Shown here piece by piece: positions 16,808-38,720 of a DNA stretch of 64,000 bases. Below the pieces are notes generated by a model. It was not told the origin of the DNA and did not search any database. It saw nothing but the letters and a program-made list of their open reading frames with translations. Position 1 is the first letter of the stretch. Each line of letters opens with the position of its first letter. Made by a program: the position numbers and the translations under genes. Source of the stretch: Planctomyces sp. (GTDB taxonomy: Bacteria; Planctomycetota; Planctomycetia; Planctomycetales; Planctomycetaceae). The stretch is from NCBI GenBank assembly GCA_019636235.1, contig JAHBXW010000004.1, forward strand, positions 124,001 through 188,000. Direction: 5' to 3'.

Positions 16808-16865
16808 GGCAAATCTCCTGTAAGGGCCGATGGAATCGGCGGACAGCGGGTTTAGTTGGTTCGGA

Positions 16866-17261: not shown

Positions 17262-17297
17262 GGTGGACAGGCTCCTTTCCATCGAGTACAAATTTTT

Positions 17298-17312
17298 GGG
17301 CAAGTCTTGCCC
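17298..17312. promoter_or_regulatory. 15-bp palindrome, candidate operator
   Basis: GGGCAAG-T-CTTGCCC is a perfect 7-bp inverted repeat with one central base. It lies 36 bases from the start codon of the leftward GIY-YIG gene and about 140 bases before the rightward XRE gene, in the shared promoter region. A homodimeric XRE-type repressor encoded next door is a natural binder, but this is inference. Confidence 0.5.
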
Positions 17313-17337
17313 TTGCGTCATCCGATTGCATAATATA

Positions 17338-17408
17338 TTGTGCGTCCGATGTGGTCAAGGCGCATGAATGCCAAATTTCTTGTGCAAACGGAAGTTGACC
17401 ACGCACAA
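17338..17408. promoter_or_regulatory. Paired inverted repeats before the XRE-ImmA/IrrE gene
   Basis: TTGTGCGT at 17338-17345 pairs exactly with ACGCACAA at 17401-17408, and GTGGTCAA at 17351-17358 pairs exactly with TTGACCAC at 17395-17402. The right half is a compact TTGACCACGCACAA; the left copy is the same sequence split by seven extra bases. The array ends 42 bases before ATG 17451. An AT-rich TAATATATT tract at 17331-17339 overlaps it and could supply a -10 element. Together these suggest self-regulation by the XRE protein. Confidence 0.5.
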
Positions 17409-17450
17409 GACCTTGGGAGAACGCAAATCACAAAGGAGGGAGAACCAACC

Positions 17451-19122: not shown

Positions 19123-19262
19123 AGGTAGGTTGCTGTAGGGTAATGTTGAACAACACTGTTTAGCATTGGTCATGACCACGAACTGCGAATTGGTCGCTTT
19201 CGGTGTACTGTGATGTCGACGCAGACGACTCCGTGCGCCGCGGCGTCACTAGGTGAACCATC

Positions 19263-20845: not shown

Positions 20846-21580
20846 ATGACTCAGACTTCCATCGCCGTCCAGACTCTCGACGACCTCGCCCGCTACGACA
20901 CCCCCACGATCTGCAACGTCATCGAGCTGTTCGACGTGCGGCCCCGCAACACGGGGTACATGGACGCCCGCATCCGCTGCTGCTTCCCGAAGTTCCCGCC
21001 AATGGTCGGGTTCGCCGCCACGGCCACCTTCCGCAGCCAGGCCGCGCCGCGCAAGGCCGACGTCTACGCCAGCCTGAACCAGCAGGTCGAACGCTTCGGC
21101 GAACTGCCCGGTCCCCCGGTCGTCGTTTTCCAGGACCTCGACAATCCCGTGGTCTCCGCCACGTTCGGCGAAGTGATGTGTTCGATTTACAAGGCGTTCG
21201 GCGCCCGCGGCATCGTCACGTCCGGCGCCGGTCGCGACCTCGACCAGGTCGAGGCGATCGGCTTCCCGGCCTTCACCGACGGCACGATCTGCTCGCATGG
21301 CTACTGCCATACGCTGCAGCTCCACATTCCGGTGACGGTCGGCGGCGTGGCGGTCGAGACGGGCGACCTGCTGCACGGCGACCGCAACGGCGTCACGACG
21401 ATTCCCACCGACATCGCGACCGAGATTCCGGACGCCTGCCGGGACTACATGGCGGCCGAGCAGATCGTGCTGGACTACGTTCGCGGCCCGAACCCGACCC
21501 CGCGCGGGCTCGAGGACGCTCGGAAGGCCTGCCAGGCGGCGTTCGTGGAAATCGCCAAGCGGGTCTCGCGAAAGCGCTGA
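20846..21580 (+). CDS. RraA-like protein / 4-hydroxy-4-methyl-2-oxoglutarate aldolase family
   Basis: A 244-residue member of the RraA/HMG-aldolase fold. Marker segments are GARGIVTSGAGRDLDQVEAI (the metal-site Arg-Asp) and GGVAVETGDLLHGDRNGVTT (the conserved GD.....D.NGV pattern). These proteins are either divalent-metal aldolases acting on hydroxy-oxo acids or, in E. coli, an RNase E inhibitor; length and an N-terminal 40-residue extension fit the aldolase-type paralogues in planctomycetes. It diverges from an SDR, and the two could act in one sugar-acid or hydroxy-acid pathway, which is inference only. Confidence 0.88.
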   Translation: MTQTSIAVQTLDDLARYDTPTICNVIELFDVRPRNTGYMDARIRCCFPKFPPMVGFAATATFRSQAAPRKADVYASLNQQVERFGELPGPPVVVFQDLDNPVVSATFGEVMCSIYKAFGARGIVTSGAGRDLDQVEAIGFPAFTDGTICSHGYCHTLQLHIPVTVGGVAVETGDLLHGDRNGVTTIPTDIATEIPDACRDYMAAEQIVLDYVRGPNPTPRGLEDARKACQAAFVEIAKRVSRKR

Positions 21581-21629
21581 GCCGCCGGCGTCCGACGCCG
21601 TTTCATCCGCGTCCTCAGGAGATTCGCAC

Positions 21630-22760
21630 ATGTCGAAGAGCTGTCGCGTGAATCTCCCTCGGGAGATCCTGCTGGGTGCGGCGGTTGCGGCCGCACTGGG
21701 ACTCGCGGGCTGTTCGGGCGATTCCGACGCGACGTCGCAGCCGTCGGCGAAATCGAACGCGCCGCCGGCCGCGGAATCCTCCACCGATGAGCCGCTGACG
21801 GCCGCGGAGCTGCGGCGGCGGCTGGGGGCGAAGGAGTCAGCCCGATTCACGCGGCAGGGGCGGACGTTTGTGGAGGCGCAACTGGCCGACTCGGGGGTCG
21901 AGGACCTGTCGCCGCTTCGCGGGCAGGGCCTGAAGACGCTCGACCTGTCGCGGACGGCCGTTTCGGATCTGTCGCCGCTGGGGGGCATGCCCCTGACGAC
22001 GCTGGCTCTGGCGAAGACGAACGTCTCCGACCTCGCCCCGCTGGCGGGGATGCCGCTGAAGACGCTGACTTTGAACGGCGCGCCGGTGTCCGACGTCGCC
22101 CCGCTGAGCGAGACGCGGCTGACGATCCTCGATCTCTCGTCGACGCGCGTCGCGGATCTGTCGCCGCTGGCCGAGCTGCCGCTGACGGCGCTGTACCTCG
22201 AGGAAACGCCGGTCAGCGACCTGGCGCCGCTGGCGAGTTCGCTCGTGAATCAATTGTGGCTCAACCGGACGCAGGTTTCGGATTTGAGTCCGCTGGCCGG
22301 GAAGACGTTGTCGGAGCTGAACCTGTGCGACACGCCGGTCAGCGATCTGACGCCGCTGGGGAATGCGCGGATCGGAACGCTGTGGCTGCGGAACACGCCG
22401 GTGACCGATTTGCGTCCGGCGTCCGGACTGGGTCTGGAGAGCCTGGACATCCAGGGGACGCCCGTTTCGGACCTGTCGCCGCTGTCGGGGCTGCGCGGGC
22501 TGTCGCGGCTGAACATCGCGGGGACGGCCGTGACGGACGTGCGGCCGCTGTCCTCAGTGGCGCTGACGCGGCTGATTCTGACGCCGCATACGATCACCGA
22601 GGGGCTCGACGATTTGCGGAAGATGACGTCGCTGCGTGAGCTGGACGTGGAATTCGAGGGGGATCGTCCGCCGCGGACGCCGGAGCAATTCTGGCGGGAC
22701 TGGGAGGCGGGCGTTCTCACTCCGAAGAACGCGGAATCGGCGGGAAATCCGGTCGATTGA
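21630..22760 (+). CDS. Leucine-rich-repeat lipoprotein
   Basis: A 376-residue lipoprotein. Residues 1-28 are a lipoprotein signal (LLGAAVAAALGLAGC lipobox, cysteine at about 28), followed by a Ser/Ala linker. From about residue 80 to 310 there are some ten near-identical repeats of roughly 22 residues on the pattern xVSDLSPLxxxxLxxLxLxxT, the internalin-like LRR type that forms a solenoid. The end (PPRTPEQFWRDWEAGV) is a short cap. It is probably an envelope-facing binding protein; the ligand is unknown. Codon-level similarity of repeats suggests recent internal duplication. Confidence 0.9.
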   Translation: MSKSCRVNLPREILLGAAVAAALGLAGCSGDSDATSQPSAKSNAPPAAESSTDEPLTAAELRRRLGAKESARFTRQGRTFVEAQLADSGVEDLSPLRGQGLKTLDLSRTAVSDLSPLGGMPLTTLALAKTNVSDLAPLAGMPLKTLTLNGAPVSDVAPLSETRLTILDLSSTRVADLSPLAELPLTALYLEETPVSDLAPLASSLVNQLWLNRTQVSDLSPLAGKTLSELNLCDTPVSDLTPLGNARIGTLWLRNTPVTDLRPASGLGLESLDIQGTPVSDLSPLSGLRGLSRLNIAGTAVTDVRPLSSVALTRLILTPHTITEGLDDLRKMTSLRELDVEFEGDRPPRTPEQFWRDWEAGVLTPKNAESAGNPVD

Positions 22761-22817
22761 TGGGGGGGGCCGATCGCCTATACTCCCTCTGCAGCCGCCG
22801 TTTGAGTCGTCCACCGG

Positions 22818-23615
22818 ATGAACCCGCCAGGGGCGCGGCGCTCCCTGGCGCGTTCCGGGACCGGAGCATCCGCCTTGTTTTCGCTGCTTGCTGCCCTGAG
22901 ATCCTCCATCGGCAAAAAGGTCGTGATGGGGCTCACGGGCCTGTTCCTGTGCCTGTTCCTGGTGATCCATCTCGCCGGCAACGTGCTCCTGTACTTCGGG
23001 AACCTGAGCTACAACGAGTACGCTGAGAAGCTGCACTCGATGCCGGCGTTCCTGGTGACGTCCGAAGTCATCCTGTACACGATGTTCCTGCTGCATCTGT
23101 ACCTGGCGTGGGCCACCAGTGGGGAGAACAACGCGGCCCGGGGGCCGGTCGGGTACGCCGTCAAGCGCACCAAGATCTACAACCGCATCCTCTGGCTGCA
23201 GCCCGAGTCGATGATGTTCTTCACGGGCGCGGTGGTGCTGGCCTTCACCATCATTCACGTCCTGGACTTCAAGTTCGGATTCGGCTGGAACGATGAAGTC
23301 CGCGCGCTGGACCCCTATGGCCGCGCCGTAACGATCCTCGGCACGAACACCCGCAAGGTGATCTACATCGTGGGCAGCCTGTTCCTGGGCCTGCACGTGG
23401 TGCACGGCTTCCGCAGCGCCCTGCAGTCGCTGGGCATCAACCATCCCAAATACAATGCGCTGCTGAGCCGGGCCTCGACCGCTTTCGCCCTGATTGTCGC
23501 GATCGGCTTCGCCAGCTTTCCCGTGTGGTTCAGCGGTCCCGAGCTGATGGCGCCTGCCGCCGAATCCAGCGTGGTCCCCGTCGAAGACAGTCCCGCCGGG
23601 ACCGCCGCCCCCTGA
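22818..23615 (+). CDS. sdhC: Succinate dehydrogenase cytochrome b subunit
   Basis: A 265-residue membrane protein of the SdhC/FrdC cytochrome b558 type. It has five predicted helices: [75 protein letters not shown], and [15 protein letters not shown]. Histidines in VIHLAGN, LHLY, IIHVLDF and LHVVHGF fit the di-haem ligands of this class. It anchors the complex and passes electrons to quinone. A short low-complexity C terminus (after ELMAPAAE) is unusual. The flavoprotein subunit gene starts 46 bases downstream; the iron-sulfur subunit gene is not beside it. Confidence 0.93.
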
Positions 23616-23661
23616 CATCCCGTTGGCCCGCATTTCCGTCCGGCCCCCGACGCCCGCATCC

Positions 23662-25596
<1,935 letters not shown>

Positions 25597-25855
25597 GCCG
25601 CGGCCGGGCCGTCGGGCGGCGTCGCGCCGGATGAGTCCCAAGGGCGAACCGGCGATGTCCGACCGGATTGCCTGTCATTGCAAATTGCAAAACGAGAATT
25701 GAAAACTGCAAATCGGACGGGTGAGCGGGGGACGTCTGTCCCCTGTGGGCGGCACTTCCTGGCGGGACTCGCTTTGCTCGTCGCCGCCGTACGCCTCCGC
25801 GCTGCGTCAAGTGTTTGTTCAATCCGTGACAAATGATTGTCATGACGTCTGCCGT

Positions 25856-26962
25856 TCACGGTCGCTGTGGTGCGCCCTTCAACAGCTCGTCCAGCCGACG
25901 TTCCACCAGCGCCTCGCGCGACTTCGCGCGGATCGCCAGGTTGACCTCGACCTGCCGCAGCTTCAATTTCAGCCGTTCGACTTCCAATTCCTGAAGCTGT
26001 TGCCGGACGTCGAACGATTTCTCCACCAGAATTCGCAAAGTCTGCAGTTGGGACGAGTTGTCGCCCCCTGCGTTTCTCGCCGCTGAGGCGTCGAGAGCGA
26101 CGGCGTCCTCCAGCGACGCCAGCTCGCGGCGCAGGTTGGCCGTCTGGGCGTCAACGTCGTTGCGCCCATCGGCCAGGGGAGCGCCGGAGGAAATCTCGCG
26201 CAGCGGCTCCGCAAACGGCTGTCGGATAATCGTTCCCCCCGACTGCGCGTCTGTCCCGGCCACTGCATTCGGGTCGGGGCTCGGCACGTCCACGCGAGCG
26301 ACCTCCGCCAGCGCCGCATCCCGCCAGGCCTTCGTCCTGGGCAGCAGCGAGACAATGCCGTCCAGAAATTGAATGCTGCCTCCCACGTCCGAGGCCGGAA
26401 CGGTCTGCATCCAGTCCACGAGCTTTTCGTGCAGTTCCGTGACGCGGATATTGCGGGGAGACAGGTAGTGGATGGCGAGCAGGGTCAGGGCCGGGTCTGT
26501 GGGAGAGGTCCAGCGGCCCGTGGACGCGGCGAACGTGTAGAAATGTTTGCCCTCTGTGAACACAGCCACATCGGGGGAGACGGCTGGCATGGCCTCGGAT
26601 GACTCCGGCAGATGGACGACATCCCAGGTTCCGGTCTCACCGCTGTATGCGGCGACGCCATCTTTGAGTCGCACGGCGCCGACGAGCTCCACGCAAACCG
26701 GGACGATCGACTCCTGCGGATCAATCTTCAGAATCTGCCAGCGGCCGGACTTGCTGCTGAAGCCGGCCAGTTCGTCATTGCCCTCCGACCATTGAATGAT
26801 GATCGATCCGCCGCGCGCCTGGCGGTGCGTCTCAACCCGATTCAGGCCGCCGTCGGGGGCGAGATCGAATCCACCGAGTCCGAACTGGGCGAACAGCGGA
26901 GATGACGGTGCGAGCAGGCACAGGACGCCGAACAGGGAAAGTCTTCCAAGCCGGGGAATCAT
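25856..26962 (-). CDS. Exported protein with C-terminal coiled coil
   Basis: A 368-residue secreted protein. ATG 26962 is preferred over an in-frame codon nine residues earlier because it has AAAGAGG upstream and starts a clear signal peptide (IPRLGRLSLFGVLCLLA, cut after LFA). The middle is beta-rich, with propeller-like blades (GGSIIIQWSEGNDELAGF and AVFTEGKHFYTFAASTGRW). The last 90 residues form a coiled coil (QQLQELEVERLKLKLRQVEV). It is the third gene of a leftward run after an ECF sigma factor and a Ser/Thr kinase, so it may be a target or sensor of that module. No known family. Confidence 0.78.
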   Translation of the reverse strand: MIPRLGRLSLFGVLCLLAPSSPLFAQFGLGGFDLAPDGGLNRVETHRQARGGSIIIQWSEGNDELAGFSSKSGRWQILKIDPQESIVPVCVELVGAVRLKDGVAAYSGETGTWDVVHLPESSEAMPAVSPDVAVFTEGKHFYTFAASTGRWTSPTDPALTLLAIHYLSPRNIRVTELHEKLVDWMQTVPASDVGGSIQFLDGIVSLLPRTKAWRDAALAEVARVDVPSPDPNAVAGTDAQSGGTIIRQPFAEPLREISSGAPLADGRNDVDAQTANLRRELASLEDAVALDASAARNAGGDNSSQLQTLRILVEKSFDVRQQLQELEVERLKLKLRQVEVNLAIRAKSREALVERRLDELLKGAPQRP

Positions 26963-27045
26963 TTCAGGGCCTCTTTGAAAAGGGGTCACAGGGGAAAGTC
27001 GGCCTCATAGCAGTCAGGCGGTCGAGAACTTCGCGGAAACGCGCT

Positions 27046-28557
27046 TCAATCCGGGACGTCGATCGCCGTCGCCTCGAGCAGCGCGTCCGCCTCATCCGCC
27101 AACTCTTCAAGTTGTCGATCCGTTCCGTCATCCCAGGTCCCCCTTTCGGAGGACTGCGTCGCCATCGCGGCGCGACTCCCCTCCGCGGGATCGACGGGAT
27201 CCTGGCGTTGCCGCGTCATCACGGCGACGAGCGCCAGAAGCCCCCCCAGGACGATGCCGGCGAGGAGGCCGGCGCCGCGCGAACGCATGGCGCGCCGCTC
27301 GGGAAGCAGGTCGCTTACCAACTGCGGCAGCGGACAGACCTCCGGCTGCTGCAGATGCGCCAGGCTGTCTTCCAGGGCCTGGGCGACTTCCTCGGCAGAG
27401 CGGAACCGGTCCGCGGCCGATTTCTCGAGCAGTTTCCCGACCAGCGCGTCGAACCATTTCGGCGTCAGCGGATTCAGTTCGCCGAGCGGACGGGCCGGCT
27501 CGTCAGTCACCCGTCGCAGAATTCCGTATGTCGTTTCAGCGCGGAACGGCGGCCGGCCGGCCGTCATGGCGTACAGCACGCTGCCCAGCGAGAACAGGTC
27601 GCTGCGGACGTCGACCGATTCCCCACGCGCTTGTTCCGGCGACATGTAGTGCGGCGTGCCGGCGATCAGGCCGCTGCGCGTCAGCGTGGCGTCGTCGACG
27701 GCCCGGGCCAGGCCGAAGTCGGTCAGCATGACTCGTTCGACGCCGCGCTCCAGCAGGATATTGGCGGGTTTGACATCCCGGTGGACGAGCCCCTGGGCAT
27801 GCGCGGCCGCCAATCCCCGGGCCACCTGGACGGCGATCCTCAGGACGTCGCCAATCGGCAGCGGGCCTTCGCGGTCCAGCCGCTCCTGCAGCGATTCGCA
27901 GTCGACGTACGGCATCACCAGAAACGGCAGCCGCGCACTGGAATCGACATGCAGGATGGGCATCACGTTGGGATGGACGATCGCCGCCGTCGCGCGGGCC
28001 TCCCGCGCGAACCGCTGACGCGCCGCCACGATCGACGCCAGATGCGGCGCCATCACCTTCACAGCCACAAGACGATGCAGCTCGTCCTGAAACCCCTTCA
28101 GGACAATGCCGTGCGCGCCCTGGCCAATGAACTCCCGGATTTCAATGGAGCCCAGCCGGCCCAGCGAATCGGCGTTTTCCGATGGCGGCAGAAAGTCGAC
28201 AATGAAGTCAGTGGGATCGAGCGCATGTCCTCCAGCGAACTCGTCGTCCTCGTCTCCCACGGACCGGAGACGGGGAACCAGCGTCGACCCCGCGCCGTGC
28301 GGCGGCTGGTGTTCGCCGCTGGCCTCTGCCTTGAGGGCGTTGCTGATGGTCCCCCAATGGGCGCCGTCCGCGGCCATCGCTTCCAGCGCCCGCTGGCAGG
28401 CATCGCACTGCGACAGATGCGCGGCGAGCTGCTCCTCATCCTGCTGCGAAAGCTGTTCGCTCAAGGCGTGTTCGAGCAGTGTACTATCGCATCGGGCGGT
28501 CGGCATGGGCGTGTTAATCGATCGATCAGGGGGCGTTCGAGTTCCCGTCATGGACAT
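27046..28557 (-). CDS. Membrane Ser/Thr protein kinase with N-terminal zinc finger
   Basis: A 503-residue Hanks-type kinase. Residues about 20-65 form an anti-sigma-like zinc-binding helix (HLSQCDACQRALEAMAAD). The catalytic domain has the glycine loop IGQGAHGIVLKG, VAVKVMAP lysine, HRDVKPANILL catalytic loop, DFGLA, SPEQARGE, and the lobe helices. A membrane helix (GLLAGIVLGGLLALVAVM) follows, then an acidic 60-residue outer tail. The kinase domain faces the cytoplasm. It follows the ECF sigma gene by 50 bases in the same direction; in planctomycetes this sigma-kinase pairing is frequent and the zinc finger suggests direct sigma binding. Confidence 0.92.
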   Translation of the reverse strand: MSMTGTRTPPDRSINTPMPTARCDSTLLEHALSEQLSQQDEEQLAAHLSQCDACQRALEAMAADGAHWGTISNALKAEASGEHQPPHGAGSTLVPRLRSVGDEDDEFAGGHALDPTDFIVDFLPPSENADSLGRLGSIEIREFIGQGAHGIVLKGFQDELHRLVAVKVMAPHLASIVAARQRFAREARATAAIVHPNVMPILHVDSSARLPFLVMPYVDCESLQERLDREGPLPIGDVLRIAVQVARGLAAAHAQGLVHRDVKPANILLERGVERVMLTDFGLARAVDDATLTRSGLIAGTPHYMSPEQARGESVDVRSDLFSLGSVLYAMTAGRPPFRAETTYGILRRVTDEPARPLGELNPLTPKWFDALVGKLLEKSAADRFRSAEEVAQALEDSLAHLQQPEVCPLPQLVSDLLPERRAMRSRGAGLLAGIVLGGLLALVAVMTRQRQDPVDPAEGSRAAMATQSSERGTWDDGTDRQLEELADEADALLEATAIDVPD

Positions 28558-28607
28558 GCGCTGCGCGGACCATTGATGCGAGCACTTCAGGGGGGATCGC
28601 GGCGCGT

Positions 28608-29192
28608 TCAGGGCGCATCCAATTCAGCGACCTTTCCGCGAATCCTGGCCATGATGCGGCTGCGGGACATGTAGATGCTGCCCGGCGACACGCCGAGTTC
28701 CCGGCCGACCAGATCAACGGGCTGGCCCTCGACCGCCGTTCTCCAGAAGGCCCGCCAACTCGTGTCGAGGAACTCGTGGCGCACCTGTTCCGCGGCCCAG
28801 ACGATCAGTTCGTGCTGGTACCGCTGGAGCTGCTGTTCGTCGGGGCGGTCTGCGACGCTCTGGAGGACGGCCATCAGCTCGCTGCCCCCCACTCCTCCCG
28901 CCTGCCGCCGTTCGCGCGACATGAACCGAATGACGACGTTTCGGGAAACGGCCCCCAGCCACCTCCGGAACGACGCCCTGCCGCCATCGTCCGACCAGCC
29001 TTCAATGGAACGCGCGATCGCGAGCAGGATCTGCTGCGTCACGTCCGGGACGTGCCGTTCCGGAACTCCCTGCCGGCGGACCAGCCGGTTCAGAAACCCC
29101 TCGTACGCGCAGACGAAGTCCCGCCAGTCGGCATCGTTCTGCTCGTTCTTCAGCCTGACGATCAGGCTCTTGCGGGTTTCCAGCGGCGACAT
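28608..29192 (-). CDS. ECF-type RNA polymerase sigma factor
   Basis: A 194-residue sigma factor, start ATG 29192 with AGGAGG 6 bases upstream. Region 2 spans FVCAYEGFLNRLVRRQGV and DVTQQILLAIARSIEGW with the ASFRRWLGAVSRNVVIRF core-binding part; region 4 is HEFLDTSWRAFWRTAVEGQ followed by the helix-turn-helix VDLVGRELGVSPGSIYMSRS. No ECF-type C-terminal extension is present. It starts the leftward cluster with a Ser/Thr kinase and an exported coiled-coil protein. Kinase-linked activation in place of an anti-sigma is likely for this class, but is inferred here from gene order. Confidence 0.92.
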   Translation of the reverse strand: MSPLETRKSLIVRLKNEQNDADWRDFVCAYEGFLNRLVRRQGVPERHVPDVTQQILLAIARSIEGWSDDGGRASFRRWLGAVSRNVVIRFMSRERRQAGGVGGSELMAVLQSVADRPDEQQLQRYQHELIVWAAEQVRHEFLDTSWRAFWRTAVEGQPVDLVGRELGVSPGSIYMSRSRIMARIRGKVAELDAP

Positions 29193-29461
29193 GCGTCCTC
29201 CTGCCACGGTGAGTGCAGCCCAGGCTGGAAATCTCACGCGAGATTCTGCCGTCCGAGGAGGATTTCGTCGATCCGGCGGACGCCATCGCTTTGACCGCAT
29301 CGCCGCCGCTGCCACATGCGCGGCATCTCCCAAGCGTGGCGGGCTATCGAAAAGCCCCGCGGAACAACGAAACAACCGCAGGCGCCGCGTCCATTGAAAG
29401 ACGCCGCACGCTGCGGTTGCCCGATTCCAGCTGCTTCAGCGTTGTCCGGCCAACGCCCGGC

Positions 29462-31207
29462 CTAATTCGTCGGACTGCCCAGCGTCTCCAGTTCCTGCAG
29501 CCGCTTGAGCGCGTCGGCGGCCTTCAGCGTCTGATAATTGATGCCCGCTGCGTTCAGGCTGCTGCCCTGCTGGAACGGGAATGCCGGCATCGTGATGAGG
29601 AAGTTCTTGATCTCCTCCTGGACGGGAACGAACAGCCAGATGTTGTCAGCGTACCAGCGGAGGTACATTGCCGACTCGTGCGGCATTTTCTCGTAGGGGT
29701 CCGCCTTGAGGTTGACGATCAGCGGCCAGCCGGTGACGAGCCGGGCGCCCGTCGCGATGTTCCCCTCGATGGAGGCGAAGTTCACTTTCCAGTCATTCCA
29801 GCGGACGGCGTTCAATTCGCCTCCCTGGCCGAAGTACAGGATCTGCTCACGCGGCCCCTTTTTCACCTCTCCTTTGAAGAGCGGCAGGAAGTTGTAGCCG
29901 TCAGCGTGCACCTTGAACGTCCGGCCATTGGCCTGATGCCCCTGCTTCAGCTTCGCCACGATGTCCGGCTCGCCCGCGGCCGCGAGCAGCGTCGGCATCC
30001 AGTCCTCCTGCGAGAAAATCTCGTTGATGATCGTGCCCGGCGCGATCACGCCCGGCCAGCGGACGAGCATCGGCACCCGGAAGCCCCCCTCCCAGGTGGT
30101 CCCCTTTTCCCCATGAAACGGGGTGATGCCGCCATCCGGCCACGTCGCCGTCTCCGCGCCGTTGTCGGTGCCGTACACCAGGATCGTATTGTCGGCCACG
30201 CCAAGATCATCCAGCTTTTTCAGCACCGCGCCGACATACGCATCGTGCTCCACCATCCCGTCGGGATAGAGCCCGATGCCCGTCTTGCCGACGGACTCCG
30301 GCTTGAGGTGCGTCCAGACATGCATGCGCGTGGAGTTGTACCACAGGAAGAAGGGCTTGTTCGACTTGACGGTCCGATCCAGGAAGTCCATCGCATGCTG
30401 ATGAACTTCTTCGTCGATGGTCTCCATCCGCTTCGCGGTCAGCGGCCCCGTGTCGACGATGGACTGTCCGCCCTGGCCGTCCGACTTGCAGTGCAGCACG
30501 CCGCGCGGGCCGTACTTCTTCTTGAATTCCGGATCCTTCGGGTAGTAGTACGTCTCCGGCTCTTCCTCCGCGTTCAGGTGATACAGGTTGCCGAAGAATT
30601 CATCGAAGCCATGCACCGTCGGCAGGTGCTGGTCCTGATCGCCAAGGTGATTCTTTCCGAACTGGCCGGTGGCGTAGCCGCGCTCCTTCAGCAGGTCCGC
30701 GATCGTGGGAGTCCAGTCAGGAATGCCGTGCGGGCTGCCCGGCATGCCGATCGTCAGCAGTCCGGTGCGGAACGGGTGCTGGCCCAGTATGAACGACGCC
30801 CGGCCGGCGGTGCAGCTTTGCTGAGCGTAGGAATCGGTGAACAGCGCGCCCTCTTTGGCGATGCGGTCAATGTTCGGCGTCCGATAGCCCATGATGCCAT
30901 GGTTGTAGGCGCTGATGTTGTGCACGCCGATGTCGTCCCCCCAGAGGACGAGGATGTTCGGCTGCTTGCCAGTCTGCTGGAGGCTGGCGGCTGCCGCCAG
31001 GTTGTGTGCGGCAATGGCGGCTTGTGCGCTGGTCGGCGCGCCCGCGGCGGCGGTTGCGAGAACGGCGGTCCGGGTCCCGGCGGGCGTGACTTCGGCGGAC
31101 GCCGCCCCCGTCAACGACAGATTCCACTGTCCGGCGCCGGCCGCCCACCCCAGGGCGGCGCCCAGGGACAGCAGCGCGACTGTGGTCAACTTCAAACGCG
31201 GCGCCAT
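29462..31207 (-). CDS. Secreted arylsulfatase-type sulfatase
   Basis: A 581-residue exported sulfatase: signal helix LTTVALLSLGAALGWAAGA, an Ala/Thr-rich linker, then the catalytic fold from NILVLWGDDIGVHNIS (calcium-binding Asp pair). The formylglycine motif is CTAGR in QQSCTAGRASF, the C-x-A-x-R form matured by sulfatase-modifying enzyme. Later segments FGKNHLGD, WYNSTRMHVWTHL and GTDNGAETATW supply the usual Lys, His and Asp-Asn ligands. It hydrolyses a sulfate ester, probably of a carbohydrate or aromatic compound, outside the inner membrane. It lies downstream of an OprB porin and an outer-membrane protein in the same direction. Confidence 0.93.
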   Translation of the reverse strand: MAPRLKLTTVALLSLGAALGWAAGAGQWNLSLTGAASAEVTPAGTRTAVLATAAAGAPTSAQAAIAAHNLAAAASLQQTGKQPNILVLWGDDIGVHNISAYNHGIMGYRTPNIDRIAKEGALFTDSYAQQSCTAGRASFILGQHPFRTGLLTIGMPGSPHGIPDWTPTIADLLKERGYATGQFGKNHLGDQDQHLPTVHGFDEFFGNLYHLNAEEEPETYYYPKDPEFKKKYGPRGVLHCKSDGQGGQSIVDTGPLTAKRMETIDEEVHQHAMDFLDRTVKSNKPFFLWYNSTRMHVWTHLKPESVGKTGIGLYPDGMVEHDAYVGAVLKKLDDLGVADNTILVYGTDNGAETATWPDGGITPFHGEKGTTWEGGFRVPMLVRWPGVIAPGTIINEIFSQEDWMPTLLAAAGEPDIVAKLKQGHQANGRTFKVHADGYNFLPLFKGEVKKGPREQILYFGQGGELNAVRWNDWKVNFASIEGNIATGARLVTGWPLIVNLKADPYEKMPHESAMYLRWYADNIWLFVPVQEEIKNFLITMPAFPFQQGSSLNAAGINYQTLKAADALKRLQELETLGSPTN

Positions 31208-31755
31208 GGGTGAGTCCTCAACGTGGGGGAATGATCATTGCCAATGAAACAAGTCCCGCGCCGGCCCCTCATCGGAGCCCGCGTGGCGACGTGCAACGTC
31301 ACGGACGGCGGCCCATCCGGCGAACACGCCGAACATCGCCGCCTTTGAGTTGGTGAAAGCCAAGACAGGACAGGAACTCGCGAACGCGCAGCACTGCGCA
31401 CGCGGCAACAAGAGACGTGAAGGACGACAGGCGACTCCGACCGTTTGCGAGAACCGCGCCAAAGACAAGAATCGAACGACGCCGACAGCAGAAAATGAGC
31501 GGCGAACGCTTCAGCCAACGCGCTTCAAATTTGTCGCCGCGCGAGCAAACTACCGCTCGTCTCAAGCGCCAACAAGCCCCCCAAGACAGGAAGCTTGCGA
31601 TTTTTTCAGAGGTCCGGCAGACCTTGGGAAGCCGGATTCAAAGTCGCACGTCCACATCGAAAGACTGTGCGAATCCGCACACCGCTGTGCCAGTCGAACG
31701 TGCCGCGCGGAGTCCGCGCCAGTTGCTCCGGGGCGTTCCTGACCGCCAGGTGACC
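31208..31755. other. 548-bp intergenic region, porin to sulfatase
   Basis: No supported gene is seen on either strand. The stretch is less GC-rich than its neighbours, and the reading frames through it have no domain and no good ribosome site. It should hold the leftward promoter of the sulfatase gene, because the distance is too large for simple readthrough from the porin gene. I found no clear terminator hairpin with a T-run. Confidence 0.5.
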
Positions 31756-33126
31756 TCACAGCGTCAGGTTGACGCGGATGCCATAAACGAATGCGTCATC
31801 GGCGATCGCACTCGCCTCCGGGCGGATGTACTGAACGTCCGGAGTCACGTTCAGCCAGGGATTGACCTGAACGTTGTAGAACAGCTCGACGCCCGTTCCG
31901 TCCTGGGGCGCAAACAGGAACTGCGGGATCGGGCCGAATTCCTGGCTGGCGCCGACGTAGTACCAGCCGATGCCCCAGCGGTCGTCCTTGCCGCGGCGCA
32001 GGTCGCTGTCGCCGCCGAGTCCGGCGCTCAGGAAGTAACGCAGGGGAGTCGGATTGCCGTCGCTGATCGATGCCCGGCCAAACACGCCCCAGCCACGCTG
32101 AGTCTTGCCCGACAGCAGCTTCAGATACTGGTCGAACCCGTAGTAGATGGTCCACGAATCGGACAGGGTCGGAAAGCCAGGCACAGTCGGCTCGGGGTAC
32201 TGTCCTGGCGGCGGCTCATTGAACCGGAGGTCCGTCAGGTCGACGTGCTTCCACATGCCGCCGACATGGTGCTCGCCGGGAAGCCCCAACAGGTTCGTGT
32301 TGAACTTCACTTCGCCGCCGATGATCACGCCCTGGGCGAACAGGTCGTCCATGTCAAAAAAATCCTGCGTCCGATCTTTCGGGTCATACACAAACGCGGA
32401 AATCATGCCCCACTGCTGCGGCATGGCGGCCCCCGCCGTGAAACCCGTGTATGGCAGACCCAGCAGGAAGGCGGGATTGGCAATCAGCGCCTGATTGACG
32501 AACTGATCCGTCCCGTCGCCGCCGGCGAACACGTCCTGGTCCGCTGCGCCCAACACGTCCTTCTTGCCGACGTAAACGATGAGCTGCTCCGACAGCGGTT
32601 GCGTGATGACAAAGTTGGACATGTACAACTGCCCCGGGTCGTCCGGCGCCGGCGGCAATGCCGCGGGAAACACCGCCGGCGCAAACGCTCCGGTGCGCAA
32701 CGACACGTTGCCGTACTCGCCGTACCAGTGTTCCAGACGGATCAGGAGCGACCCGTGCGGCAGACCGCCGAATTTCTCAAGGTTGAGGTGCAGGTCGTAC
32801 TCGCCGCGCCCCGTGTACAGAAATGTGTCTCCCGGGGCGAGGGCCGGCACTGGCGAGGCTGTAATTCCCCCATCCACGCCAAACGCGAAGTGCGTCGACC
32901 GCCCGGCGAATCGGAATCCGCTCTCCTGCAGGTCCGTCCGCAATCCGCCCCAGTCCCCGGTCAGCGTCGGCCGCATCCAGAGATCGTCACAGCCAAAGCA
33001 CGCGCTGAACGGGGTCTCTTCCAGACTCCCGTCGCAGCGGACGTCGCACACCTCGCCCTGTGCGGCTGCGGAACCGCATGTCATCAGCGTCAGGGTCACG
33101 ACGGTAAGCGGCACGATATTGGACAC
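31756..33126 (-). CDS. OprB-family carbohydrate porin
   Basis: A 456-residue outer-membrane porin. A signal peptide (VPLTVVTLTLMTCGSAAA) precedes a Cys-containing lead with CDVRCDGS and ACFGCDD. The body is typical of OprB: LTGDWGGLRTDLQESGFRF near the start (the family hallmark), many amphipathic strands, SNFVITQPLSEQLIVYVGKK, and a final strand (DDAFVYGIRVNLTL) ending in an aliphatic residue. The first 60 residues are an atypical Cys-rich extension. It likely lets sugars or sulfated sugars cross the outer membrane and fits the sulfatase encoded downstream. Confidence 0.9.
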   Translation of the reverse strand: MSNIVPLTVVTLTLMTCGSAAAQGEVCDVRCDGSLEETPFSACFGCDDLWMRPTLTGDWGGLRTDLQESGFRFAGRSTHFAFGVDGGITASPVPALAPGDTFLYTGRGEYDLHLNLEKFGGLPHGSLLIRLEHWYGEYGNVSLRTGAFAPAVFPAALPPAPDDPGQLYMSNFVITQPLSEQLIVYVGKKDVLGAADQDVFAGGDGTDQFVNQALIANPAFLLGLPYTGFTAGAAMPQQWGMISAFVYDPKDRTQDFFDMDDLFAQGVIIGGEVKFNTNLLGLPGEHHVGGMWKHVDLTDLRFNEPPPGQYPEPTVPGFPTLSDSWTIYYGFDQYLKLLSGKTQRGWGVFGRASISDGNPTPLRYFLSAGLGGDSDLRRGKDDRWGIGWYYVGASQEFGPIPQFLFAPQDGTGVELFYNVQVNPWLNVTPDVQYIRPEASAIADDAFVYGIRVNLTL

Positions 33127-33212
33127 GGTGATGCACTCCGGATTGCCTGGCGCCCGGCCTGTTCCGCAACTTGAGATTCGCCCAGCGCCACTCGCCTCTG
33201 ACGACTGCGAAT

Positions 33213-34199
33213 TCAGAACGCGAACGAGAAGGCCGCGAACGGCCCCTGCATCGTCACATCGAACCGGAACTGCTGATCGCCGCTTCCCTGCGATTCATTG
33301 ATGTCGAGCACACGGTACCCCAGCACCAGCGACGTCCCGGGATGGCTCTGGCATTCCCAGCTCACCCCGGTGATCAGGTTCCAGGCCAATTGCGACGACG
33401 TCCCGATGCCGAAGCCTCCGAAGTCCGTTCGCGCGAATCCGTCGAGGCCCGGAACCAGCGTCACGGCCGTCCGCGCTCCAATCACCAGGTCCACCCACTC
33501 CTTCGAGAGGTCCGCGGACACCGTCGGACCATTGACCGGATTGATGCGCACGCCGTTCTGCACCTGGTAGTAGCGCGCCCCCCCCAGAAGGTCGACCGAC
33601 CACCGCGCATTCGTCGCCGCGTCCAGCTCGACGTCGACCACCCGCGCCATCGCCATCGATTCCAGAATCGTCGAGCTGATGTCGAAGTCGAGCCGCCCCC
33701 CCAGCGGCCCCGTCTGCGACGGGCTGACTCGCATGAGCATGCCGTCGAAGATCAGTCCGAAGTTGCCTTTGCCGACTTCGATGTGCCCCATCACGGCGCC
33801 GTTCAGGTCGTCGAACAGAATGTCGTACAGGTCCGACAGGCTCATATCGATCGGGGCTGAGACGCCTCGGGCCCCGATCCGGCCCTTCATCGCGGGCGTC
33901 CACACATAGGGTGCAACCAGCACCCAGGTCTGATCGGGCGATCCTGTGGCGGGATGCATGCCGACCTGGATAATCGACGGACCGGGGCGGGACGATTCGA
34001 ACGTGGCCTGCGCCACGTCCGACAACATCCGCCTGCTGGCGGAGGTCGACGTCGCTGGCGACCAGCCATCGTCGCCGTCGATGGACTCCATAAAGATCGA
34101 ATGCCCCGAACGGACAACGTGGCCCGAGTCCTGCGCCCTCGCGGGCCCGCTGGCCGCCACGAACATCACCACCCACGTCCACCGCGCGACGCTGACCAT
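33213..34199 (-). CDS. Outer-membrane beta-barrel protein, function unknown
   Basis: A 328-residue exported protein with signal VARWTWVVMFVAASGPARA. The mature chain begins with 80 polar residues, then alternating strands of barrel type: TWVLVAPYVWTPAMKGRIGA, GHIEVGKGNFGLIFDGMLM, RWSVDLLGGARYYQVQNGV and VDLVIGARTAVTLVPGLDGF. It ends on AFSFAF, a terminal aromatic residue that is the usual BAM recognition signal. The strand count suggests a small barrel of about 8-12 strands. It is 87 bases upstream of the OprB porin gene in the same direction, so the two are probably co-transcribed. Specific role unknown. Confidence 0.8.
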   Translation of the reverse strand: MVSVARWTWVVMFVAASGPARAQDSGHVVRSGHSIFMESIDGDDGWSPATSTSASRRMLSDVAQATFESSRPGPSIIQVGMHPATGSPDQTWVLVAPYVWTPAMKGRIGARGVSAPIDMSLSDLYDILFDDLNGAVMGHIEVGKGNFGLIFDGMLMRVSPSQTGPLGGRLDFDISSTILESMAMARVVDVELDAATNARWSVDLLGGARYYQVQNGVRINPVNGPTVSADLSKEWVDLVIGARTAVTLVPGLDGFARTDFGGFGIGTSSQLAWNLITGVSWECQSHPGTSLVLGYRVLDINESQGSGDQQFRFDVTMQGPFAAFSFAF

Positions 34200-34795
34200 G
34201 CGTTGATTCCTTCCCTCGCTGCAGCGACTGCTCGCGGGTCCGATGGGCGCTCAGCCCCGGCCCACGCCCGCGAGACCCCAACCCCATGGACGTCGACGGC
34301 GTCAGGATCCTGACGCCAGCCGCCCATCTCCCCCCGCGCGGATTGTTCCAAACAGACACGTTCGTGCGGTTCTGACGAATGGCATCGGCAGGGCTCGATT
34401 CCGCCCATGAATCGGCAGGCGCCGCCGGAGATTCGCGCGCCGGCCGGTCGTCAGCTCGCGGAACATTCGATCCCGACGGGACTTATGAGCGGTGCTCTGA
34501 AGGGGCCCTCAGAATGCGATGAAACCGAAGATTCCGACCGATCCAGAAATCCCGCGCATCGGGCGCTACGTCCGGAACCCGCAGAGGAATCAGCACATTC
34601 CCGAAAGTCCGCCTGAACCTCCCGATTCGCCGAGGGGGTTTGCAAGCGGACGGGCGCGGGAGCCCGGTTTCGGAACCGGGCGCTGAAAAATGGCCGCCCA
34701 CGAAACCCGTCGCCAACGGCGTTCCCTGTCGCCCTTACCCGGGCGAGATACAATCCAGTCGAATTGGCCAACCCCTCTCTCTCGAGACACGTTCA
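34200..34795. other. 596-bp divergent intergenic region
   Basis: No supported gene. Contents I can see are the 20-bp palindrome at 34298-34317 and a GC hairpin at 34662-34681 (GCCCGGTT-TCGG-AACCGGGC), 8-bp stem with a tetraloop, followed by GCTGAAAAA. The region must contain promoters for the leftward porin set and the rightward DUF1254 gene. Confidence 0.5.
34298..34317. promoter_or_regulatory. Perfect 20-bp palindrome
   Basis: GGCGTCAGGATCCTGACGCC reads the same on both strands with no mismatch. It is 99 bases upstream of the leftward outer-membrane gene (ATG 34199) and about 480 bases before the rightward DUF1254 gene, so it fits an operator for the porin-sulfatase operon. With no central loop, it is a better protein site than RNA terminator. 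Confidence 0.55.
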
Positions 34796-36220
34796 ATGAA
34801 GACTTGCAGGGTCAAATGGGTCGTCACGTTCGCCGCCGCTTTCAGTCTGGCGGCGGCGTCAGCCCGCCCGGGATGGGCGGAGGACAAGCCGCTGAACGCG
34901 GAGGAAGCATCGCAGCTGGCCGTCGACGCCTACGTTTACGGCTATCCGCTGATCACGATGGAGTACACGCGGCGGGTGATGACGAACGTCGCCGAACCGC
35001 AGGGCACGCATGCCCCGATGGGACAGTTCCTGCTGATGCGGAGCTATCCGGATGCGTCCTTCAGGGACGTCACGGCGCCGAACGCGGACACGCTGTATTC
35101 GACCGCCTGGCTGGACCTCAAGCAGGAGCCATACGTTCTGAGCCTGCCCGACGAGGCGGACCGCTACTTCCTGATGCCCATGCTCGACGGCTGGACGAAC
35201 GTGTTCCAGGTTCCCGGAAAGCGCACGACCGGGACGAAGCGTCAGACGATCGTCATCGCCGGGCCGGGCTGGAGGGGAGAGACGCCCGCAGGCGCGACCG
35301 TTTATCACTCGCCGACGTGCCTCATCTGGATTCTGGGCCGGACGTACTGCACCGGCACGCCGGAGGACTACCGCGCCGCGCACGCTGTGATGGATCAGTA
35401 CAGACTTGTGCCGCTGAGCTCGTACGGCAAGCCGTACACGCCGCCCAAGGGCAAGGTTGATCCCGCCATCGACACGAAGACGCCCGTGCGCGAACAGGTC
35501 AACCGCCTGTCTGCAGCGGAGTACTTCCAGTTGCTGGCGAAGCTGCTGGTCGACAACCCGCCAGCGGAGGCGGACGCGGCGATGGTCGAGAAGCTGGCCC
35601 GGCTGGGGATCGTCGCCGGCCAGCCGTTCGATCCGAGCCAGCTGCCCCAGCCCGCCCGTGCCGCCGTGGAGGCAGCGCCGCCGAAGGCGTTCCGCCAGAT
35701 CATGGGGCACTTCAAGTCGGCCGGGAAGGACATCCACGGCTGGGTCTTCACGACGGAGACCGGCCAGTACGGGACCGAATACCTGCAGCGCGCGCTGATC
35801 ACCGCGATCGGGCTGGGGGCGAACCGGCCCCAGGACGCCGTCTATCCGACGTCGGAAGTCGATGCGACGGGCCAGGCCTACAGCGGCGCGAACAACTACG
35901 TGATGCACTTCCCGAAAGGGCAGACGCCGCCGGTCGAGGCGTTCTGGTCGATCACGATGTATGACGCCGATTACTTCTTCGTCGACAATCCCTTGAACAA
36001 GTACACGGTCAGCCCGCGCGACAAGCTGGTCTATAACTCGGACGGGTCGCTGGACCTCTACATCCAGCACGAGTCGCCCGGAAAGGAGAAAGAGGCGAAC
36101 TGGCTGCCGGCGCCGAAGGACCGGTTTCTGCTGATGATGCGACTGTACTGGCCGAAGGAGTCGCCGCCGTCGATTCTGGACGGATCGTGGGAGCCCCCCG
36201 CGGTTCGGAAGACGAACTGA
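34796..36220 (+). CDS. Exported DUF1254/DUF1214 protein
   Basis: A 474-residue secreted protein. ATG 34796 begins a signal peptide (KWVVTFAAAFSLAAASARP, cut near GWA). Residues about 35-185 form DUF1254, with VDAYVYGYPLITMEYTRRVM and TAPNADTLYSTAWLDLKQEP. The C-terminal 130 residues are DUF1214: YVMHFPKGQTPPVEAFWSIT and DLYIQHESPG. These domains usually occur together in exported proteins of unknown reaction. A similar grouping of DUF1254, sulfatase and porin genes is, from memory, common elsewhere, and here all three sit within 7 kb. Divergent from the porin set. Confidence 0.9.
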   Translation: MKTCRVKWVVTFAAAFSLAAASARPGWAEDKPLNAEEASQLAVDAYVYGYPLITMEYTRRVMTNVAEPQGTHAPMGQFLLMRSYPDASFRDVTAPNADTLYSTAWLDLKQEPYVLSLPDEADRYFLMPMLDGWTNVFQVPGKRTTGTKRQTIVIAGPGWRGETPAGATVYHSPTCLIWILGRTYCTGTPEDYRAAHAVMDQYRLVPLSSYGKPYTPPKGKVDPAIDTKTPVREQVNRLSAAEYFQLLAKLLVDNPPAEADAAMVEKLARLGIVAGQPFDPSQLPQPARAAVEAAPPKAFRQIMGHFKSAGKDIHGWVFTTETGQYGTEYLQRALITAIGLGANRPQDAVYPTSEVDATGQAYSGANNYVMHFPKGQTPPVEAFWSITMYDADYFFVDNPLNKYTVSPRDKLVYNSDGSLDLYIQHESPGKEKEANWLPAPKDRFLLMMRLYWPKESPPSILDGSWEPPAVRKTN

Positions 36221-36471
36221 CGCGAGGCGCACTGACCTGCGGTCCGCCGGATCGAACATTCGGCGGGATGATGACGATCCGCTGCGCGCGGCTGTTGAGC
36301 TGACAGGAACAGTCGGCTCACGGCCGCGACCGGCGGTTGTCGGGCGCAGTACGAAACCCCGGTTGAGCGCCGAACGCGGTGTCGTGCCGCATTCACGGTC
36401 GATTGGTCAATCTCCGCCGATTCGATAATGCGGCAAGGACGTGTTTCTATCGTTCCCGAGCGATCCGCCGG

Positions 36472-37080
36472 CTATGCCGTCCGCGAGTCTGGCAGCGGCA
36501 CCAGTTTGGGAATCGGCGCCTGCAGGCCCACCACGCCGCCGAACATGTCGTGCAGCGTCCGGAAGTCGTGCCGCAGAAACTCGTACATGTCCCGCACGGG
36601 CTGATTCGCCAGGTAGCGCTGCGCGTGCGTCTCCATCTCCCGGTCGTATTCCTTCTGGCTGTGGGAGTGGACGTGGTATCGCCCCTCCAGCCGGCGGATG
36701 TCGCCGTCGAACCGCGGGCTGATGTGATACAGCTCGTGCAGGATCGTGACGAACTTTTCCTTGAATGACTGGTCCAGGAATCGCGGCAGGTAGAACGTCA
36801 GGATGTACAGCATCTCGCGGCCTTCGAGATGCAGTTGCTGGACGGCCCACTGCCGGCCGGAGCGGATCGTGGTGCGGGCGCCGTTCTGGAATCGCAGCGG
36901 CGTCAGTTTGGCCTGCAGGCCATGCAGATGCTTGCGGCGGGTCTGGGCGAAACAGACCGCCACCTGCGACATGTCGATGTGCGCGTACTCCGGCAGCGCG
37001 GCCGTGATGTCCACGCACAGCCGGCGCATGGAGGTTGTGAAATCAAACGGTCCCGGATCGATCGGGAAATCCCCCGACAT
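36472..37080 (-). CDS. Putative zinc metallopeptidase (HExxH)
   Basis: A 202-residue soluble protein. ATG 37080 has an AAGGGG site upstream; a longer in-frame start is weaker. The central motif ILHELYHISPRFDGDIRR contains HExxH plus a downstream acidic residue and a GRYHVHSHSQKEYD segment whose histidines could complete a zinc site. No signal peptide, so cytoplasmic. The family is widespread as putative metallopeptidase without a known substrate. It lies alone between the DUF1254 gene (convergent) and the exported protein behind it, 117 bases away. Confidence 0.75.
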   Translation of the reverse strand: MSGDFPIDPGPFDFTTSMRRLCVDITAALPEYAHIDMSQVAVCFAQTRRKHLHGLQAKLTPLRFQNGARTTIRSGRQWAVQQLHLEGREMLYILTFYLPRFLDQSFKEKFVTILHELYHISPRFDGDIRRLEGRYHVHSHSQKEYDREMETHAQRYLANQPVRDMYEFLRHDFRTLHDMFGGVVGLQAPIPKLVPLPDSRTA

Positions 37081-37197
37081 GGCTGCCCCTTCCCTGGTCT
37101 CGAACAGCAACGGATCTGCCGTCCTCCGGACGGCCGTTGATCGCCGCACAGCATGATCCTCGACGGGCCGGACCCGGGCAAGCTTCCACGCGGCCGT

Positions 37198-38607
37198 TCA
37201 GGGCCGCCCGGCGTCCGGTCGGGACGCGGCCCGCGAGGGCGTCGGATTCCGTTCCGCGATGAACTGCAGCTGCTGGACCAGCTCCTCGTCCCGGCTGCCA
37301 AGCTGTTCGAGCAGGTTCGATTCGACCGCAAACACGAACGACACCTGCTGGCCGTTGGGCGCGGCGCACAGGTAGTAGATCCAGTGGGCGGGAATCTTGA
37401 GGTCGTCCCCCTGCGCATTCTTCAGAGAATAGCCCCCTTCAGCGACGACGCGGAACGTCCGGAAGCCCGTTCCCAGCGAGACCTCCTCGCGGGCCGTAAT
37501 GTCCTTCAGCCGGCTCCCCAGCGACGCCCGGATGTCCGCTTCGAACTGGTCGAGCGGCGTGTGCTGGCCGGCCTTCGCCGCCGGAACAGGCGACAGGTTG
37601 CATTGCGCGATCAGGCTGCCGCGATCAAGCAGCCGCAGAATGGCGACCTGCGGCGAGCCGTCCAGCACCGCGTGAAACAGGAACCAGTCGCGCGGATGCC
37701 GCAGACGGACGCCCCAGGGCGCCGCGTCGAATGCCAGATCGAGCGCCCCGGCCGGCGCCGCGATCGGCAGCTGGCCCACGAATTCATCCGTCAGCCGGCC
37801 CGAACCGGACGCGGCGACGCTCCGCATCTGCACGGCGACGTCGGCCTCGAGTCCGGGGCTGACGGCTCCAATCGCCGATTTCACCTTGTAGACGAGCTTG
37901 GCGCCGCGGAACGCGCCCGCGGCGATCTCGAACTCGAGCGTGCCGCGGATGCCGATTTCGACGTTGGTTCCCTGCCGCTGCCCCTTGGCGCTGCCATCGA
38001 CGGCGATGATGGCCACGTCGCCATTCACTTCCGTCAGCGTGCAGGTGAGCTTCGCGGATTCCATCGCTTCGATGGCGGCCAACATCTGCACGGCCCAGTC
38101 AGCCGGCGACCAGGCGCCCCCGGGTTCCACGGCCCTTGGCGGCAGGATCCCCTCGAGGGCGAGCGGATCGCCCGGCAGCTCCAGCAGGTCCACGGCTTCC
38201 CGCGTCAGCGCAGCGTTGATGGCATAGGACTGGACGCCGACGGCATCGCCCGAGGCGACGACCAGCCGCGCGGCGGCGGGCAGTTCGACGGTCGTCCGGC
38301 GATCGCCGATGGTCGTTTCCATAGTCCCGGCCGAGAACTCCCTGACCGCCCGCAAGGCGAGCGCATCCCGGCCTCCCGCCGGCAGCGAACGTTCCACGAA
38401 AGTGAACGCCGCCGTGGCGGCCAGTTCGTGTTCGGCCGTCTTGCCCGCCCCCACGTTGGCAAACACCTTGCCGCGGGTGGTGACGCGGGTGTCGATGCGC
38501 CGGGCCTGAGGTTCGGCGGAGCGCGTCAGCGTGACGGACTGCGCCTGCGCGGCGACGGCGGCGCACGCCGCCAGAATGCCGACGGCGGAGCGGACGAGAG
38601 TACGCAT
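37198..38607 (-). CDS. Exported protein of unknown function
   Basis: A 469-residue secreted protein. ATG 38607 follows GGAAGGAA, and starts a signal peptide (TLVRSAVGILAACAAVAA, cut near AQA). The first 300 residues are beta-rich and contain duplicated strand patterns (VEIGIRGTLEFEIAAGAF); the last part (GVRLRHPRDWFLFHAVLDG) has a conserved strand then PLDQFEADIRASLG, which resembles the PsbP/DUF1795 fold. No metal or catalytic motif is certain. It is leftward, separated from secDF by a terminator at 38721-38754, so it has its own promoter. Family not recognised with confidence. Confidence 0.75.
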   Translation of the reverse strand: MRTLVRSAVGILAACAAVAAQAQSVTLTRSAEPQARRIDTRVTTRGKVFANVGAGKTAEHELAATAAFTFVERSLPAGGRDALALRAVREFSAGTMETTIGDRRTTVELPAAARLVVASGDAVGVQSYAINAALTREAVDLLELPGDPLALEGILPPRAVEPGGAWSPADWAVQMLAAIEAMESAKLTCTLTEVNGDVAIIAVDGSAKGQRQGTNVEIGIRGTLEFEIAAGAFRGAKLVYKVKSAIGAVSPGLEADVAVQMRSVAASGSGRLTDEFVGQLPIAAPAGALDLAFDAAPWGVRLRHPRDWFLFHAVLDGSPQVAILRLLDRGSLIAQCNLSPVPAAKAGQHTPLDQFEADIRASLGSRLKDITAREEVSLGTGFRTFRVVAEGGYSLKNAQGDDLKIPAHWIYYLCAAPNGQQVSFVFAVESNLLEQLGSRDEELVQQLQFIAERNPTPSRAASRPDAGRP

Positions 38608-38720
38608 CGCGATTCCTTCCCTGGTGATCGCCATGAGTCGACGGGTTCAGCCCGACGGAGTTTTATCGGACGCGGGCGATTCGCGGAAACTCCAAGTTCC
38701 CGCTCGAGAAAGGGCCTTGC

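Follow-up and report, generated by a model that had tools for sequence, protein, structure and literature searches.

Do four neighbouring genes of a planctomycete, which encode a sulfatase, an OprB porin, a second outer-membrane barrel and a DUF1254/DUF1214 protein, work as one system, and what would DUF1254 do in it? The genes lie in a 64,000-nucleotide stretch of Planctomyces sp. (GenBank assembly GCA_019636235.1, contig JAHBXW010000004.1, positions 124,001 to 188,000), which is here called the window. An earlier note, made from the letters alone, had proposed a system for the uptake and desulfation of a specific compound. Our comparison of genomes and plasmids supports a modular association of the parts. 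Because the same classes of gene pair repeatedly while their members are exchanged, we propose that they share a task, passage of the outer membrane and desulfation, with DUF1254 as a third exported element. This suggests a joint action of DUF1254 with enzymes that remove sulfate and with channels of the outer membrane. Taking all the evidence together, we hold it evenly balanced whether the locus represents one form of a modular outer-membrane and periplasmic system for the uptake and desulfation of sulfate esters, with DUF1254 handling the ligand.

Four genes on two sides of a divergent region

The four genes named in the earlier note are real. Pfam matches and, for the barrel, a structural model confirmed the sulfatase, OprB and barrel genes on the reverse strand and the DUF1254/DUF1214 gene on the forward strand, where it ends at 36220 (Table 1). 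On their common strand, the barrel gene precedes OprB by 86 bp, and 548 bp separate OprB from the sulfatase gene. The DUF1254 frame opens at 34640, where TTG is the first start; the ATG at 34796 is the better start, with an N terminus that resembles a signal peptide, and therefore the divergent gap measures 596 bp. We infer export of the locus proteins from their N termini, which were judged by eye and not with a predictor.

Table 1. Features of the locus, in positions of the window
Feature	Position	Strand	Evidence
Putatively exported S1-type sulfatase, 581 amino acids, CTAGR formylglycine motif	29462..31207	-	PF00884 1.7e-48
OprB-family porin, 456 amino acids	31756..33126	-	PF04966 5.5e-33, 115.3 bits, cut-off 22.9
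Predicted outer-membrane beta-barrel, small unnamed family, 328 amino acids	33213..34199	-	Predicted model; PF13505 matches of family members
Divergent intergenic region, 596 bp	34200..34795	.	20-bp palindrome 34298-34317, candidate operator
Putatively exported DUF1254-DUF1214 protein, 474 amino acids	34796..36220	+	PF06863 3.7e-46, PF06742 5.5e-37

Pairs of the gene families recur in planctomycete-type genomes

We compared how often genes of two families lie within 5 kb of each other with 4000 rounds of random placement within each genome. Gene places were cross-joined from the family searches, gene calls came from a simple script based on codon usage, and 3, up to 5 or up to 19 candidates were scored per genome, depending on the search, which makes these numbers minimum values. 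We excluded the 11 weakest DUF1254 rows out of 49 (E >1e-12), the 9 weakest sulfatase rows out of 51 (E >1e-78) and one 48-residue OprB piece (G030:C50), and merged split OprB pieces of one gene. Because a first look gave 22 to 236 sulfatase candidates per genome, only two defined sulfatase groups were tested: the subfamily of the window sulfatase, defined as >400 bits to the window protein, and a second, long group of about 780 amino acids, which is putatively S1_4. The search for the long group covered only 54 genomes, selected for having DUF1254, and found it in 39 of them. The barrel profile was run on 80 genomes and gave 33 matches in 23.

OprB lies near the window subfamily at 7 of 89 subfamily matches, where 0.16 were expected (G000, G001, G004, G025, G026, G034, G156), and still at 6 (0.17 expected) when the window's genome is set aside. 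DUF1254 was found near OprB in 4 of 91 cases (G000, G057, G274, G278; 0.12 expected), or 3 versus 0.12 without the window's genome (p 0.001), and near the long sulfatase group in 7 of 91 (G014, G044, G057, G176, G234, G278, G331; 0.31 expected). The long group also pairs with OprB (4/84 versus 0.18 expected) and with the window subfamily (5/89 versus 0.25). For the barrel, 5 of the 33 matches lie near DUF1254 and 4 near the subfamily, with 0.10 expected for each, and 4 and 3, respectively, are left without the window's genome. The weaker pair is DUF1254 with the window subfamily: 3 of 91 versus 0.18 expected (G000, G044, G109), and, without the window's genome, 2 versus 0.18 at 5 kb (p 0.013) and 4 versus 0.31 at 10 kb. 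For the remaining pairs that involve DUF1254, OprB or the barrel, p was ≤0.001 without the window's genome. With that genome counted, pairs and triads occur 16- to 48-fold over random placement, in varying order and with varying subfamilies. A modular association, as part of the proposed uptake and desulfation system, is thus supported; a fixed quartet is not.

Three-part versions and other phyla

Four loci carry three-part versions. In Pirellula sp. PB1.007 (L140), two subfamily sulfatases are followed by DUF1254 on the same strand, together with two OprB-type genes that converge on DUF1254 and, upstream, a FadL-like gene. One strand of G278 (L234) holds OprB, a long sulfatase and DUF1254, and in G109 (L231) two DUF1254 genes, the barrel and a sulfatase share a strand, with other genes interspersed. 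The fourth, on a plasmid of Planctomyces sp. SH-PL62 (L223), combines DUF1254 with a FadL-type gene and a sulfatase that the annotation splits into two genes.

Fifteen plasmid loci with DUF1254 were hand-picked among the 40 listed of 210 records. The barrel profile matches at 7 of these 15, with gaps of up to 3.8 kb (Bosea, Methylocystis, Synechococcus pANL, Microvirga, Cupriavidus KK10, Rhizobium CB3171 and Sinorhizobium mexicanum). In Methylocystis the match is a 101-amino-acid frame (94 bits) inside a gene annotated as outer membrane beta-barrel protein, and in pANL (L224) the barrel gene and DUF1254 diverge from a 373-bp gap, which is the layout of the window. A subfamily sulfatase is found within 5 kb of the barrel in Sulfurovaceae (L166), Rhodospirillales (L198), Chthoniobacter (L199), Rhizobiales (L203) and Skermanella (L227) and in the planctomycetes G221 and G380 (L239 and L240 are among the loci so paired); in Sinorhizobium fredii CCBAU 45436 it is 2.3 kb from a subfamily sulfatase. 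Our descriptive locus counts (139 subfamily and 79 DUF1254 loci) include loci fetched for adjacency and are not rates.

On a tree of 90 DUF1254 proteins, obtained by a quick search that gave long-branch warnings, 27 have one or more partners within 5 kb (for L271-L277 the partner labels cover the barrel and the subfamily only). Having a partner requires at least 20 changes on this tree, having a sulfatase nearby at least 11, and having a barrel or OprB nearby at least 15. Therefore, this is not one inherited neighbourhood; the association was gained or lost many times, with differing sulfatase groups and channels.

The DUF1254/DUF1214 protein

A model of this protein built from 32 sequences has a mean predicted local distance difference test score (pLDDT) of 91.3 and the fold of VPA0735 and VPA0106: 3vb9 matches with Z 35.9 and a root-mean-square deviation of 3.4 over 410 aligned residues, and 3u07 with Z 32.8. 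A function read from the fold was considered and rejected; beyond VPA0735, VPA0106 and 6ans (Z 17.5), matches reach at most Z 6.5 (RetS sensor domain, beta-galactosidases), which is too weak. N96, Y101, R182, W384, N435, W436, R449, Y451 and other residues are invariant in the 32 sequences, and their identity points us to no metal site. In the parts of the literature available to us, structures of DUF1254/DUF1214 proteins are solved, and the one function proposed comes from a model-based prediction, that of a glycosyl hydrolase for a PF06742 protein of Malassezia (PMC4634964). In the same literature we found no paper naming DUF1254 with DUF1214, OprB with sulfatase, or arylsulfatase with OprB and Planctomycet. 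The earlier note had hoped that the gene context would reveal the reaction of DUF1254, and the evidence does not reach that far: the protein may be a second enzyme or a binding protein.

Relatives at E up to 1e-80 occur in 7 of 343 genomes of the phylum, the window's included. Rhizobiales plasmid proteins have 60-65% identity to the window protein, about as close as the planctomycete relatives (42-67%); a transfer of the gene between lineages is therefore probable. The family can also be locally abundant: in G019 (L057), which has 9 DUF1254 matches in its genome, four DUF1254 genes surround one sulfatase on one strand. In Gemmata sp. IIL30 (L143:13558-14586), a short DUF1254-family protein of 342 amino acids follows two subfamily sulfatases and precedes MoxR.

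The unnamed barrel and the sulfatase

The protein encoded next to OprB has no Pfam or NCBIfam match at E 0.001 and no match to PF13505 (OMP_b-brl) up to E 0.01; 7 of 13 aligned members of its family do match PF13505. We predict that it is an outer-membrane beta-barrel. The AlphaFold2 model (10 sequences) is a beta-barrel with a mean pLDDT of 74.3, in which residues 1-85 are mostly under pLDDT 50 and largely unmodelled, and its closest folds are 9nh1 (Z 20.1) and OpcA, Pla and OmpT (Z 16.6-18.0). A query with the window protein finds the family in 102 of 72,556 plasmid records, which is a lower bound for it.

The sulfatase matches PF00884 with 165.9 bits (cut-off 25). Its CTAGR sequence fits the nucleophile motif C-x-[PA]-x-R, and C131, R135, D90, D91, D347 and N348 are invariant in 15 of 15 aligned sulfatases, the window's included. 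No match to a formylglycine-generating enzyme was found among 13 genes scanned around the locus, to which this search was confined, the rest of the genome not being searched. In a comparison with the PDB only, the nearest solved structure is PsFucS1 (7aj0; 186.5 bits, E 6e-54), with arylsulfatase A next (155.6 bits).

The subfamily is present in several phyla. A pattern scan, with one genome per species, gave at least 590 stretches, of which the best 80 loci were kept. At 118 loci, the most frequent neighbour clusters within 5 kb were HAD phosphatase (31), other sulfatases (28), MoxR (22), DUF58 (20), formylglycine-generating enzyme (20), VWA (17), OprB (7), Phenol_MetA_deg-type (6), DUF1254 (4) and the window's barrel family (4); the names MoxR, DUF58 and VWA were taken from annotation and sequence. 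The HAD phosphatase (PF12710) lies within 5 kb at L107, L129, L099, L247, L248 and others. A MoxR-DUF58-VWA set (DUF4381, BatD) often adjoins the subfamily (L226, L228, L229, L143, L166, L203, L249), in hosts that include Persicobacter, Sinorhizobium pSymA, Klebsiella aerogenes, Gemmata, Sulfurovaceae and Rhizobiales, and none of the titles listed by one literature search dealt with this pairing. In G034 (L099:845-9780), three consecutive OprB genes and a HAD gene stand with the planctomycete sulfatase closest to the window's (80%).

The divergent region and the surrounding genes

A shared divergent control region had been proposed for the locus. What we see is a divergent position with one palindrome in it; a consensus scan of the region found no sigma-70-type promoter. 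The perfect 20-bp palindrome is the sole one in the window, with a chance of P 0.0024 by first-order resampling of the divergent region and of about 0.09 if judged by how often such palindromes occur in all the loci fetched, which overlap in part (614 in 3,928,968 bases). Among the fetched loci its core is found only in L001 and L084, both of which contain the window's own stretch. The palindrome is suggestive at most, and we treat it only as a candidate operator.

The 13 genes scanned (20846-38634, the four included) have no match to SusC/SusD, a TonB-dependent receptor or a carbohydrate-active family. Nothing in the locus fixes the substrate, and the "specific compound" and "sulfated polysaccharides" of the earlier note find no support here.

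Downstream of the sulfatase, a Ser/Thr kinase and a protein with sigma-70 region 2 (just under the cut-off) are encoded at 27046-29375 (-). Beyond DUF1254, at 36472-37149 (-), lies a gene for a HELYH-motif protein that scores 23.6 bits with the PF18894 phage metallopeptidase (cut-off 23.7). Further away, a helix-turn-helix and peptidase M78 gene and a pentapeptide-repeat gene occupy 16161-19838, where G+C is lower (0.58-0.60 over 16-20 kb); this may be an acquired stretch. A Fic/DOC domain protein is encoded at 58440-59759 (+; PF02661 3.3e-18).

A proposed modular system and its alternatives

In the modular system that we propose, OprB and the second barrel would pass small sulfated molecules, or their products, across the outer membrane, and the exported sulfatase would strip sulfate in the periplasm. 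DUF1254/DUF1214 may bind or modify the same ligand beside the barrel, either as a periplasmic handling protein or as a second enzyme, and the divergent region could let both transcription units answer one signal. We infer co-regulation, transport through the barrels, a common ligand, the chemistry and the substrate.

Several findings weigh against this proposal. The exact quartet was seen nowhere but in the window among the genomes and loci examined; the survey of co-occurrence that had been suggested returned pairs and triads, and never the four together. In the one same-genus genome examined (G001) the quartet is absent: a subfamily sulfatase and OprB adjoin (L108), the barrel is 0.66 Mb off and stands without any partner in its 5-kb surroundings (L137), and the DUF1254 genes lie in other places. 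Among planctomycetes, the closest DUF1254 relatives come from nine genomes (G003, G048, G050, G053, G057, G215, G253, G263, G279), and none of these shows a partner in the fetched flanks, with contig ends nearby in G003, G048, G253 and G263. A four-gene operon fixed by descent is therefore rejected, as it is missing in the same-genus genome and beside the closest DUF1254 relatives. On the tree, 63 of the 90 DUF1254 proteins have no partner within 5 kb, and 25 of the 33 barrel genes have neither DUF1254 nor the subfamily within this distance. Outside the phylum, barrel-DUF1254 and barrel-sulfatase pairs occur separately, and in NZ_CP104131, NZ_CP098809, NZ_CP073678 and NZ_CP046333, four plasmids with rows in the DUF1254 list as well as the sulfatase list, the best DUF1254 and sulfatase places are at least 0.79 Mb apart. 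Random placement ignores gene clustering and shared ancestry, and as a control OEP/TolC near DUF1254 (0 versus 0.44 expected) is partial, with 150 places of an incomplete list.

We also weighed the possibility that the locus holds two separate units that happen to adjoin, in which the barrel and DUF1254 would do an envelope or ligand-handling job that has nothing to do with sulfate and OprB and the sulfatase would scavenge independently. We find this somewhat unlikely. In its favour, the barrel-DUF1254 pair also occurs without a sulfatase nearby, with no subfamily-profile match in the fetched stretch of the 7 plasmid barrel-DUF1254 loci. Seven loci have the barrel and a sulfatase with no DUF1254 within 5 kb, and the gap before the window sulfatase leaves room for a promoter of its own. 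However, one barrel family pairs with DUF1254 and with the sulfatase, and with both in G109 (L231) and the window, and DUF1254 is also enriched near OprB and the long sulfatase group. It is quite unlikely, in our view, that the locus is a chance neighbourhood in a sulfatase-rich and often rearranged genome into which DUF1254 came by horizontal transfer. The lone quartet, the close DUF1254 relatives without partners, the patchy distribution of DUF1254 with Rhizobiales plasmid genes as close as planctomycete ones, and the weakness of the DUF1254-subfamily pair without the window's genome would fit such an origin. Against it, the other pair enrichments persist without that genome and there are four three-part versions, so that chance is already hard to maintain for the pairs.

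Very unlikely, finally, is a role not in nutrient uptake but in turning over a surface polymer of the cell itself, sulfated or phosphorylated. The neighbours of the subfamily elsewhere (HAD phosphatase, MoxR, DUF58, formylglycine-generating enzyme and VWA, counted above) are atypical for catabolism and would suit this role, but none of them has a match among the 13 window genes scanned, and the adjoining OprB and FadL-type channels indicate traffic across the outer membrane.

Beside the modular system, we consider a bolder and unlikely possibility, that DUF1254/DUF1214 and the unnamed barrel make up an outer-membrane system of two parts, carried between phyla in part by plasmids, that imports small sulfate esters for exchangeable sulfatases. 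These esters are perhaps hydrophobic, because FadL-type channels occur in some loci. If true, this would give a function to two unassigned families and an uptake route unlike SusCD or TonB-dependent systems. The repeated link of DUF1254 to arylsulfatases, OprB/FadL channels and one barrel family leads to a concrete test, namely which sulfate ester induces or requires it. The unnamed barrel family gains partners, and the DUF1254-barrel pair could be deleted in Synechococcus elongatus with pANL and in rhizobia.

Comparison with known systems

The locus resembles SusCD-type polysaccharide utilisation loci in outline, with import through the outer membrane and an exported sulfatase, and differs from them in that their SusC/SusD or TonB-dependent receptor is unmatched in the 13 window genes scanned. 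PsFucS1 is fucoidan-active and belongs to subfamily S1_13; the window sulfatase has the same metal and nucleophile residues, and the lead of PsFucS1 over arylsulfatase A, 31 bits in the PDB only, does not fix the subfamily or substrate of the window enzyme. With VPA0735 and VPA0106 (3vb9, 2p3y, 3u07), the DUF1254/DUF1214 protein has both domains and the whole-chain predicted fold in common, at 22-26% identity over aligned residues, a likeness that lends it no function. The barrel model is like Legionella porin I (9nh1), OmpT, Pla and OpcA in fold, at 7-11% identity, and we claim no protease or adhesin role for it. The window porin scores far over the PF04966 cut-off of the OprB carbohydrate-selective porins, a match that does not establish sugar selectivity for it, and OprB porins are paired with sulfatases in some planctomycete-type genomes, as they are here.

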